Below are positions 34,079 to 37,202 of a DNA stretch of 64,000 nucleotides, in pieces. The notes beneath the pieces were generated by a model that was not told the origin of the DNA, made no database searches, and saw nothing but the letters and a program-made list of their open reading frames with translations. This stretch comes from Salipiger sp. CCB-MM3 (GTDB lineage Bacteria; Pseudomonadota; Alphaproteobacteria; Rhodobacterales; Rhodobacteraceae). Position numbers and translations under genes: made by a program. Location: positions 372,001 to 436,000 of the forward strand of contig NZ_CP014595.1 of NCBI RefSeq assembly GCF_001687105.1, given 5' to 3'. Positions within the stretch are counted from its first letter, which is position 1. The number at the start of each line of letters is the position of its first letter.

Positions 34079-34543
34079 ATGTCCGCAGACACTTCCGCAG
34101 AAACCGACCTGATCAAGCTTTACTCCACGCGCATCCTTGCGCTGGCGGCGGATATCCCGCGGACCGAGCGGCTGTCGCATCCCGACGCCACGGTGAAGAA
34201 GCGCTCGCCGCTCTGCGGCTCGACAGTGACGGTGGATCTTTCGCTGCAGGAGGGCAAGGTCAGCGACTACGGGCAGGACGTGAAGGCCTGCGCCTTGGGT
34301 CAGGCGGCGGCTTCGGTGGTCGGCGAGGCGATCATCGGCTGCACACCCGCCGAATTGGCCACGGCGCGCGACGCGCTGCGCGCCATGCTCAAGGAAGACG
34401 GCCCCACTCCTCCTGCGCCCTTTGATGGGCTGGAGGTGCTGCGCCCGGCCAGCGCCTATAAGAACCGCCATGCCTCGATCATGCTGGCGCTCGACGCCGC
34501 GACCGAGGCCGCCAATGAGGTGGCGGCGAAACAGCGCGCGTGA
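34079..34543 (+). CDS. NifU/IscU-like iron-sulfur cluster scaffold
   Basis: The 154 residues resemble the N-terminal domain of NifU/SufU-type scaffolds, which assemble Fe-S clusters on conserved cysteines. C51-region KKRSPLCGSTVTVDL and VKACALGQAAASVV give two of the usual cysteines; the third of the classical set is less clear. The frame is open upstream; the ATG at 34079 follows GGGAAACCC. It is a single gene, without other isc/suf genes nearby. Confidence 0.82.
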   Translation: MSADTSAETDLIKLYSTRILALAADIPRTERLSHPDATVKKRSPLCGSTVTVDLSLQEGKVSDYGQDVKACALGQAAASVVGEAIIGCTPAELATARDALRAMLKEDGPTPPAPFDGLEVLRPASAYKNRHASIMLALDAATEAANEVAAKQRA

Positions 34544-34581
34544 TCGCCGCGCGCTGAGACCTTCCCTTTCCCAATCGTGAT

Positions 34582-34618
34582 AAAAAAACCGCCGCTCTCC
34601 CTGGGTGGAAGGCGGCGG
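34582..34618 (-). terminator. Rho-independent terminator on the minus strand
   Basis: Stem CCGCCGC / GCGGCGG followed on the minus strand by seven T residues. It lies 146 bases beyond the stop of the 46-codon gene and is the likely end of its transcript. Confidence 0.75.
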
Positions 34619-34763
34619 CAGTGGCGTGTCTTGGTGGATCCGGAACAGACCGTGGCAGCGCGTCCGGGGATCAGGCGACCCGGATGGGGAAACAGGCGCG
34701 CGCATCGAGGGACAGGGATGCGCCGGCTGCCGGATACAAGACCGCAGGCAGAAATCTAAAACG

Positions 34764-34904
34764 TCAGAGCAGCGGCAGATGCAGCGCGCCCACGAGGATG
34801 ACGACGAGCGACAGCGCGCCGATCATATCCCCCACCAGCGAGGGGCTGGACATCTGGGATTTGAACTGGGCGCGGGTCACTGTGGTGCGGATCATGGCAA
34901 TCAT
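34764..34904 (-). CDS. 46-residue membrane protein, probable SOS-regulated gene
   Basis: This short frame encodes MIAMIRTTVTRAQF... ending HLPLL. The first 26 residues are polar and slightly basic; residues 27-46 form one hydrophobic span. A good ribosome-binding sequence, AGGGAGAG, lies 5-12 bases upstream. Two direct-repeat boxes of the alphaproteobacterial LexA type (GTTC-N7-GTTC) precede it at 34926-34940 and 34982-34996, and a T-tailed terminator follows. It lies downstream of recG on the same strand. I recognise no family; the size, single span and SOS-like control resemble the idea of SidA of Caulobacter, a small SOS-induced division inhibitor, without clear sequence similarity. Confidence 0.7.
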   Translation of the reverse strand: MIAMIRTTVTRAQFKSQMSSPSLVGDMIGALSLVVILVGALHLPLL

Positions 34905-34925
34905 CTCGGCTCTCCCTGTGAGCGT

Positions 34926-34940
34926 GTTCTCATCATGTTC
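34926..34940 (-). promoter_or_regulatory. LexA-type box, gene-proximal
   Basis: GTTC-TCATCAT-GTTC on the plus strand, 22-36 bases ahead of the 46-codon gene. Direct-repeat GTTC-N7-GTTC is the known LexA site in Rhodobacter and rhizobia. Another GTTC at 34955 lies nearby. Confidence 0.65.
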
Positions 34941-34981
34941 TCTGTTGCTCTTTTGTTCTCATAGCGCCTGAGTCGTGTAAA

Positions 34982-34996
34982 GAACTTTTTGAGAAC
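34982..34996 (-). promoter_or_regulatory. LexA-type box, gene-distal
   Basis: On the minus strand GTTC-TCAAAAA-GTTC, 78-92 bases ahead of the start. Two more GAAC half-sites (35003, 35013) follow at about 10-base steps. A possible -10 (TATGAG) lies 3' of this box on the minus strand, so the box would overlap the -35 region. Confidence 0.65.
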
Positions 34997-35042
34997 ATTT
35001 GCGAACACTGCGGAACGCGAGGCCGGAACAGCGCCGCCGCCC

Positions 35043-35063
35043 GTGCGTAGATTGCCTACGCAC
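35043..35063. repeat. Perfect inverted repeat GTGCGTAG-N5-CTACGCAC
   Basis: Eight-base arms with ATTGC loop, 49 bases past the recG stop. It may be the end of the recG message or a protein-binding site; there is no T-run on either strand. Confidence 0.55.
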
Positions 35064-35111
35064 GAGATGAATCCTCATTCAGAAACAGTGATTTAGAAGA
35101 GGCCGAAACGC

Positions 35112-37202
35112 TCAGCCGACCGAAATCAGCCCGATCGCCTCATCCTGCCGCATCAGCCAGAGCAGCAGCCGTGCGGCGCGCCCGCGTTCGGAGGTGAGAC
35201 CCGGATCCTCGGCCAGCAGCTTGCGCGCGTCGCTCTGCGCCATGGCCATCAGCCCCGACTGCGCCTCGAGGTCGGCGACCTTGAAGCGCGGCAGGCCCGA
35301 TTGCGCGGTGCCGATGAGATCGCCGGCGCCGCGCATCTGCAGATCGACCTCGGAGATGCGGAAGCCATCCTCGGTCTCGCGCAGCGTGGTGAGCCGTTTC
35401 GAGCCGCTCTCGCCCAGCGGCGGCTGGTACATGAGCAGGCAGGTCGAGGCTGCCTCGCCACGCCCGACCCGGCCGCGCAGCTGGTGCAACTGCGCCAGCC
35501 CGAAAATCTCGGCGCGTTCGATCACCATGATCGAGGCATTGGGCACGTTCACCCCGACCTCGATCACCGTGGTGGCGACCAGAACCTTGGTCTCCCCGGC
35601 GACGAAGCGCGCCATGGCGGCGTCTTTCTCGGCGGGCGGCATCTGGCCGTGCACCAGCCCCACCACACCCTCGCCCAACTGCGCGCGCAGGCGCTTGAAA
35701 CGCTCTTCGGCGGCGGTGAGATCCGAGACCTCGCTTTCCTCGACCAGCGGGCAGACCCAATAGGCCTGCCGCCCCTCGGAGACCGCCTTGCGCAGATGTT
35801 CGACCACCTCGCCGATGCGCTCGGTGGAGACCAGCGCGGTCTGCACTGGTTTGCGCCCCGGCGGTTTCTCGTCGAGCACCGAGACATCCATGTCGCCATA
35901 TTGCGCCAGCGCGAGGCTGCGCGGGATCGGCGTGGCGGTCATCACCAGCACGTCGGCGCCCTGCCCCTTACGGCCCAGTTCCAGCCGCTGGCGCACGCCG
36001 AAGCGGTGTTGCTCGTCGACGATGGCGAGCCGCAGGTCGCGGAACACCACGTCTTCCTGAAACACCGCATGGGTGCCGACGAGGATGTGGATATTGCCCT
36101 CGGCCAGCGCGGCGAGCTTGGCCTTGCGCTCGGCGCCCTTGTCGCGGCCGGTGAGGATTTCCACCACCACGCCCGCGCTTTCGGCCAGCGGCTGCAGCCC
36201 CTCGAGGTGCTGGCGGGCGAGGATTTCCGTCGGCGCCATCATCACGCCCTGCGCGCTGCTTTCCACCGCGATCAGCAGCGCCATGAAGGCCACCAGCGTT
36301 TTGCCCGCGCCCACGTCGCCCTGCAGCAGGCGGTTCATCCGCGTCTCATCGGCCATGTCGGTGGCGATCTCATCCATCGCGCGCAGCTGCGCGCCGGTGG
36401 GCCGATAGGGCAGCGCCGCAAGCACGCGGCGGCGCAGATGGCCATCGCCCAGGGTGGGGTGCCCCTTGCCGCGGCGGCGGTTGATCCGCGCCAGCGCCAG
36501 CGTCAGCTGATGCGCCAAAAGCTCGTCATAGGCGAGGCGCGCGCGCGCCGGGGCCGAGGGGCTGAGCGCGTCCATTCCGTCGGGCGCATGGGCGGCCTCG
36601 AGCGCGTCGTGCCAGTCGGGCCAGCCCTCGCGGTCCTTCAGCGGGCCGTCGATCCATTCGGGCATCTGCGGCGCGCGCGTCATGGCATCGCGGATGGCGC
36701 GGGCCATGAGCTTTTGCGTGACGCCAGAGGTGAGCGGGTAGACCGGCTCGAAATCGGGCAGCGTATGCGCCTCGTCGAGCGGCAGGATGTGGTCGGGGTG
36801 GACCATCTGCGCCATGCCGTCGAAGAGCTCGACCTTGCCCGAGACCAGTCGCCGCGAGCCTTCGGGCAGCACGCGGGTGAGGTAATCGGCGCGGCCATGG
36901 AAGAACACCAGCTGGAACGGCCCCTCGCCATCCTCGACCTGAATGCGGTAGGGGCGCCCCTTCACCGCAGGGGCCATGTGGCGCAGCACCTGCACCTCGA
37001 CCGTCACCGTGCCGGGCAGCACCGCCTCCTGCACCGAGCCGCGCGGACGCCGGTCGATCACCGCATGCGGCAGCGTCAGCAGCAGGTCGCGCGGGGCGTG
37101 CACGTCGAGCCCCTCGAAGGCCTGCGCGGTCTTCGGGCCGACGCCGTCCAGCGTCTTGAGCTCGGCAAACAGCGGCCAGAGCGGTTCCGGGCGCTGGCTC
37201 AT
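35112..37202 (-). CDS. recG: ATP-dependent DNA helicase RecG
   Basis: RecG remodels stalled replication forks and branch-migrates Holliday junctions. The 696 residues have the N-terminal wedge/OB domain, then helicase motifs: Walker A GDVGAGKTLVA, motif Ia MAPTEILARQH, motif II DEQHRFG, motif III TATPIPRSLALAQYGDMD, and motif VI region QLRGRVGRG. Length is normal. It starts 22 bases after the ligA stop on the same strand, so ligA-recG are probably co-transcribed. The putative SOS gene lies downstream. Confidence 0.97.
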   Translation of the reverse strand: MSQRPEPLWPLFAELKTLDGVGPKTAQAFEGLDVHAPRDLLLTLPHAVIDRRPRGSVQEAVLPGTVTVEVQVLRHMAPAVKGRPYRIQVEDGEGPFQLVFFHGRADYLTRVLPEGSRRLVSGKVELFDGMAQMVHPDHILPLDEAHTLPDFEPVYPLTSGVTQKLMARAIRDAMTRAPQMPEWIDGPLKDREGWPDWHDALEAAHAPDGMDALSPSAPARARLAYDELLAHQLTLALARINRRRGKGHPTLGDGHLRRRVLAALPYRPTGAQLRAMDEIATDMADETRMNRLLQGDVGAGKTLVAFMALLIAVESSAQGVMMAPTEILARQHLEGLQPLAESAGVVVEILTGRDKGAERKAKLAALAEGNIHILVGTHAVFQEDVVFRDLRLAIVDEQHRFGVRQRLELGRKGQGADVLVMTATPIPRSLALAQYGDMDVSVLDEKPPGRKPVQTALVSTERIGEVVEHLRKAVSEGRQAYWVCPLVEESEVSDLTAAEERFKRLRAQLGEGVVGLVHGQMPPAEKDAAMARFVAGETKVLVATTVIEVGVNVPNASIMVIERAEIFGLAQLHQLRGRVGRGEAASTCLLMYQPPLGESGSKRLTTLRETEDGFRISEVDLQMRGAGDLIGTAQSGLPRFKVADLEAQSGLMAMAQSDARKLLAEDPGLTSERGRAARLLLWLMRQDEAIGLISVG

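Follow-up and report, generated by a model that had tools for sequence, protein, structure and literature searches.

Several small, LexA-controlled products described in other bacteria provide the background for the locus analysed here. In Caulobacter crescentus, SidA is described as a very small inner-membrane protein that is controlled by LexA and delays septation through FtsW (PMC4211646). In Escherichia coli, DinQ is reported as a LexA-controlled single-span peptide restrained by an antisense RNA (PMC3567139), and TisB from the same species is a LexA-controlled single-span peptide as well. YneA and SosA of Gram-positive bacteria are SOS-induced division inhibitors. For DinR, the 3′ RNA of dinI in Klebsiella pneumoniae, which is described as SOS-controlled and as a repressor of ftsZ, use of the ftsZ ribosome-binding site has been proposed (PMC10907235). 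Membrane peptides and 3′ RNAs are both established kinds of SOS product.

We analysed a window of 64,000 nucleotides from Salipiger sp. CCB-MM3 (NZ_CP014595.1, positions 372,001 to 436,000), in which a small gene lies beside recG. A preliminary description of positions 34764–35016 had proposed that this gene encodes an SOS-induced, SidA-like membrane protein. As in the case of SidA, the window protein is very small, has a predicted single span, is under LexA-type control by prediction and belongs to an alphaproteobacterium (PMC4211646). SidA measures 29 aa versus 39–46 aa here, the likeness is drawn from its published description and not from sequence, and a SidA-like role of the window protein is proposed by analogy only. 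The resemblance to DinR lies in a LexA-controlled small-protein transcript that carries a 3′ RNA, with the ftsZ ribosome-binding site as a candidate target (PMC10907235); the protein encoded with DinR is, however, unrelated, and the RNA found here is multi-branched. DinQ and TisB share LexA control and a single span with the window protein but, as reported, are restrained by antisense RNAs. YneA and SosA come from unrelated bacteria, and their likeness is again by description. To our knowledge, SidA has no structured 3′ RNA. The features of the locus are listed in Table 1.

Table 1. Features of the small-gene locus and its surroundings, in window coordinates.
Feature	Position	Strand	Remarks
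recG, upstream neighbour	35112–37202	−	
Near-invariant promoter block	34943–35007	−	74/78 loci; includes the half-site 35003–35006
LexA operator 1 (predicted), GTTCTCAAAAAGTTC	34982–34996	−	Exact GTTC-N7-GTTC; conserved
Second, imperfect LexA operator (predicted), GAACAAAAGAGCAAC	34944–34958	−	Conserved; GAAC-N7-CAAC; GAACAAA..ggcAAC in alignment
Extra GTTC-N7-GTTC box	34926–34940	+	Window-specific
Ribosome-binding sequence AGGGAG	34912–34917	−	Ahead of ATG; GGGA/GGAG-type sites in relatives
ORF for 46-aa single-span membrane protein	34764–34904	−	ATG start; 46 codons + stop
Constant single-stranded motif UUUCUGCCUGCG	34743–34754	−	Start of 3′ UTR; conserved; mostly unpaired in the window fold
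Structured 3′ RNA	34624–34745	−	Long closing stem around C-rich-loop hairpins; hairpin 1 at 34700–34723
Intrinsic terminator	34582–34619	−	Stem-loop 34588–34619; T-run 34582–34588; conserved in alignments

The small membrane-protein gene and its distribution

The 46-codon gene of the preliminary description proved to be real, with its ribosome-binding sequence present ahead of the ATG as stated. The frame is kept in relatives and is under selection: over 136 pairs of 17 sequences, pN/pS was 0.475 in the reading frame, compared with 0.91 and 2.82 when the alternative frames were read, and the letters departing from the majority numbered 157, 67 and 228 at codon positions 1, 2 and 3, respectively. 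A single membrane span, as had been suggested, is consistent with the hydropathy, which reached at least 1.6 across 19 residues in 34/34 sequences (35 rows, with the window counted twice). Within or near this span, the residues D, G, L, L, H and P were invariant among the 30 aligned sequences. Family members are mostly 39–42 aa long, and the window copy has 46 aa. The window protein carries a 6–7 residue insertion ahead of the span that is absent from the 21 other aligned homologues.

The sequence had been called apparently new. No Pfam or NCBIfam model matched the 46-aa protein. A profile built from 22 homologues retrieved 237 database proteins at E ≤ 1; no Pfam domain was found among the best 120 of these 237 matches, and the named proteins among the same 120 were hypothetical, uncharacterized or putative.

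The protein was detected in all 20 same-genus genomes (its own and G001–G019; worst E 0.01) and in 24 of 41 genomes when these 20 are included. The matches in G021 and G024 also adjoin recG, and those in G020 and G031 do not lie beside it. With the 22-homologue profile at E ≤ 1, matches were obtained in 263/295 family genomes and 262/294 genera, the best E value exceeding 0.01 in 16 of the 263 genomes. These family-wide homologues, together with the selection on the frame, rule out a chance ORF. In a class-wide sample of 289 genomes, six matched at E ≤ 0.05, four of which belong to the same family as the window, while the two matches outside the family were weak and fell within frames of 404 and 469 codons. 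The sample, in which kinship was not tabulated for 263 non-matching genomes, thus contained no convincing homologue outside the bacterial family.

Adjacency to recG, noted in the preliminary description for the window, extends to the relatives: recG lies upstream of the small ORF in 56/56 loci that were retrieved via protein similarity alone (L057–L112). Three of these loci are repeats of others, and some share genomes with the set of 22 loci; since L084–L112 are the top-scoring protein matches, the set leans toward well-conserved cases. Most loci also show an iron-sulfur scaffold gene and hisI, where the fetched stretch was long enough. Among the named organisms carrying the locus are Alloyangia, Salipiger, Ruegeria, Thalassococcus, Sulfitobacter and Antarcticimicrobium. 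In Paracoccus ferrooxidans, no gene is tabulated between the scaffold gene and recG in a gene table that is incomplete. Paracoccus denitrificans, on a replicon of chromid size (L115), keeps the promoter beside recG with a diverged 31-codon ORF downstream, which is membrane-span-like and scores weakly against the profile (E 0.17). The 3′ region of this locus is shorter, its terminator is different, and no copy of the 3′ RNA could be recognised in it.

Predicted LexA operators in the promoter

Two GTTC-N7-GTTC boxes and two GAAC half-sites had been named upstream of the gene. Both boxes exist as placed, but they differ in conservation. Operator 1 is exact in 20/22 loci and, in the search of further homologous loci, in 52/56, the exceptions being L064, L076, L079 and L082. 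The box at 34926–34940 is specific to the window; the relatives, once aligned, carry no equivalent of it, which rules it out as a conserved second operator; as an extra exact box, it may confer tighter repression in the window's strain. The predicted second operator is the imperfect site at 34944–34958, which was absent from the preliminary description, where the window-specific box had been named instead. Both half-sites are present as well, although only the one at 35003 falls within the conserved block, and the one at 35013 lies outside it. Alignment of the promoters gave the consensus tGTTC.C.aaTGTTCTcAaAAAGTTCTTTACa-N14-aTGaGAACAAA..ggcAACaa (74/78 loci, 59 distinct sequences), with L076, L079, L095 and L107 escaping the rule.

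Counts of exact boxes were dismissed as standalone evidence, being at chance level in both the window and the genome: the window holds two versus 0.93 expected, with at least two in 24 of 100 shuffles, and the genome holds 97 versus 114 for the reversed control. The case therefore rests on conservation. The pattern GTTCTTTAC-N12-16-TGAGAACAAA occurs in 160/295 family genomes, with one match in each and none in the reversed control. Seventy pattern places were checked; 54 of them had a listed ORF, the other 16 belonging to genomes outside the ORF list used, and in 54/54 the pattern lay on the same strand and no more than 320 nt upstream of the small ORF. Operators of the same type precede the genome's own lexA (GAACATGCCTAGAAC) and recA (GAACAAGAGGCGAAC). 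Taken together with the promoter conservation, this agreement strongly supports the predicted LexA control of the small gene, as put forward in the preliminary description. The recA promoter of L117 has a similar arrangement, with a GTTCTCTTTTTGGTC site followed by GAACAAGAGGCGAAC.

A structured 3′ RNA and its candidate target

A conserved stretch of ~180 nt leads from the stop codon to a strong terminator. The T-tailed terminator of the preliminary description is real, but it lies outside the span 34764–35016 to which it had been assigned. The structured RNA in this interval had been missed. The 3′ UTR of the predicted LexA-controlled mRNA holds an RNA element that ends in the terminator. Among the loci listed, the stems of the hairpins vary while the loops are constant (CCUGUCCC or CUGCCUG).

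The 3′ part of the window transcript, terminator included, folds with a z score of −3.07, whereas the whole transcript reaches only −1.29. Across 42 non-redundant loci taken without the terminator, the mean fold z was −2.6, with 30/42 loci below −2 and 12/42 weaker than −2; these counts include some cores that the cutting rule over-trimmed (e.g., L098, L102 and L106). An alignment-free swap test, in which the 5′ arm of each locus was folded against its own 3′ arm and those of other loci, gave a mean of −30.1 kcal/mol for the own arms versus −24.8 for the best of 20000 permutations. For hairpin 1, the own arms gave −11.1, compared with −8.7 (sd 0.39), a value matched by 0/20000 permutations.

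When 63 sources were searched with a covariance model built from 10 loci, 51 matches had E ≤ 1, of which 39 had E ≤ 0.01. The loci used for training are part of these counts, and the window is counted two times, once under its own name and once as L031. The window match covers 34616–34751 (E 2.5e-5) and is the sole match in its own genome at E < 1, the next having an E value of 1.21. In the alignment fitted to the model, 92.7% of cells were paired versus 34–46% with the partners slid, and both-sided changes occurred in 19/21 pairs. With a plain sequence alignment, RNAalifold retained only the terminator. No Rfam match above the gathering score was obtained for window positions 34400–35200 and 20 loci searched in E-value mode; the best sub-threshold matches fell far short of the cut-offs, with weak ones to Ysr141 reaching 20–28 bits versus a cut-off of 196. 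By sequence comparison, this 3′ UTR is an RNA of predicted structure that is conserved, shows covariation and has no match in Rfam.

Because DinR is reported to repress ftsZ (PMC10907235), ftsZ was picked as the candidate target before any target inspection. The ribosome-binding site of ftsZ in this family is an unusual CAGGCGG(A), ~10–20 nt ahead of the start (L154–L161, L243–L271). CAGGCGG was found at this site in 31/31 family genomes with the unit and in 0/5 class genomes outside the family. Of the family genomes in which the ORF was not detected, 24 had a readable ftsZ leader, and 15 of these carry CAGGCGG as well (14/22 plus one of two; for the former set, ftsZ loci were obtained from 28/30 genomes and 22 leaders were readable). 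UCUGCCUG of the constant 5′ strand is predicted to pair with CAGGCGGA over 8 bp, including one G-U. Among 1216 background leaders from four genomes, for which gene starts came from a crude ORF picker applied to 400 kb per genome, CAGGCGG occurred 10 times and CAGGCGGA never.

The ranking of ftsZ among all leaders depended on the measure used. With a first, looser pairing measure, ftsZ ranked weakly (42/313, 123/321, 29/295 and 15/287), and a contiguous-pairing measure was adopted after this result. By the latter, the leaders equal to or better than ftsZ numbered 8/313, 6/321, 7/295 and 6/287 for UUUCUGCCUGCG; 6, 11, 8 and 0 for CUGCCUGUCCC; and 28, 39, 42 and 3 for CCUGUCCC. Shuffled versions of UUUCUGCCUGCG equalled the contiguous-pairing result in 2–14 of 100 trials. 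As the RNA motif and the ftsZ site are both inherited, the four genomes amount to approximately one observation. The long seed GGGACAGGCAG was not enriched, giving 0–6 matches per genome, within the range of the reversed control, in 10 genomes. The complementarity is only suggestive of the ftsZ ribosome-binding site as a target of the RNA, and we treat it as a lead.

Possible functions in the SOS response

The reading that we prefer, held tentatively and with slightly less than even confidence, is that of a LexA-repressed transcript that would provide both a SidA-like, division-delaying peptide and a trans-acting 3′ RNA, with ftsZ as the leading candidate target. LexA would hold the unit off until DNA damage lifts it, and this step of the proposal is well supported. 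The peptide (39–46 aa, single span) would then enter the inner membrane and, by analogy with SidA, delay septation. The C-rich 3′ RNA probably acts in trans by masking one or more ribosome-binding sites, as its structure and complementarity suggest. The coding frame, the predicted operators, the RNA structure, the terminator and their shared conservation are jointly supported at the sequence level; from them we infer damage induction, membrane insertion, a division target, and the release and activity of the RNA. A more specific version, a family-wide SOS checkpoint in which one transcript hits division twice, with the peptide stopping the divisome and the multi-loop 3′ RNA silencing ftsZ translation via CAGGCGGA, seems unlikely to us; if true, such a dual-action transcript would qualify as a dual-function RNA and represent a new family of structured RNAs.

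The protein alone could matter, as a LexA-controlled SidA-like inhibitor whose 3′ UTR merely stabilises or times its own mRNA. Paracoccus, which retains the promoter and the membrane ORF without a recognisable RNA, agrees with this explanation, as does the lack of a convincing target set for the RNA. The loops, however, are constant while the stems vary, which is more than a plain mRNA stabiliser would need, and we consider a protein-only function possible but somewhat doubtful.

Type I toxins tend to have a scattered distribution. The gene described here is, by contrast, a single conserved copy at one place family-wide, and we find it decidedly unlikely that its product is a TisB- or DinQ-like SOS peptide that would depolarise the membrane and slow the cell while the RNA structure tunes translation, although LexA control, a single span and small size are held in common with DinQ as described (PMC3567139). 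An SOS membrane protein with some other task, such as envelope repair, DNA uptake or the release of gene transfer agents, would accord with a study of Dinoroseobacter shibae that predicted LexA sites at genes for gene transfer agents, for recombination and for pili (PMC6473078), but the neighbouring recG, iron-sulfur scaffold gene and hisI give no hint of it and we regard such a task as improbable. A chance ORF with chance boxes, which would fit the chance-level box counts in the window and the genome, is contradicted by the conserved frame, boxes and place and can be given practically no credence.

A LexA-controlled small protein or sRNA beside recG was not found in the open-access literature searched, and a term search of the main text of two sRNA papers (PMC4809877, PMC5107571) returned no mention of recG. 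Within that literature, both the protein family and the RNA family appear to be new, as does their combination in a single transcript throughout the bacterial family. Division arrest upon DNA damage in this large family of marine and soil bacteria, which includes Salipiger, Ruegeria, Sulfitobacter and their relatives, is likewise undescribed there. The small gene, the promoter and the RNA of this locus are near-universal in the family, and each could be deleted on its own in ordinary laboratory strains. Under the preferred reading of a LexA-repressed peptide with a trans-acting 3′ RNA, a gene next to recG may brake cell division during DNA repair, and, provided that its RNA half is active, a single transcript would unite a peptide checkpoint with one based on RNA.
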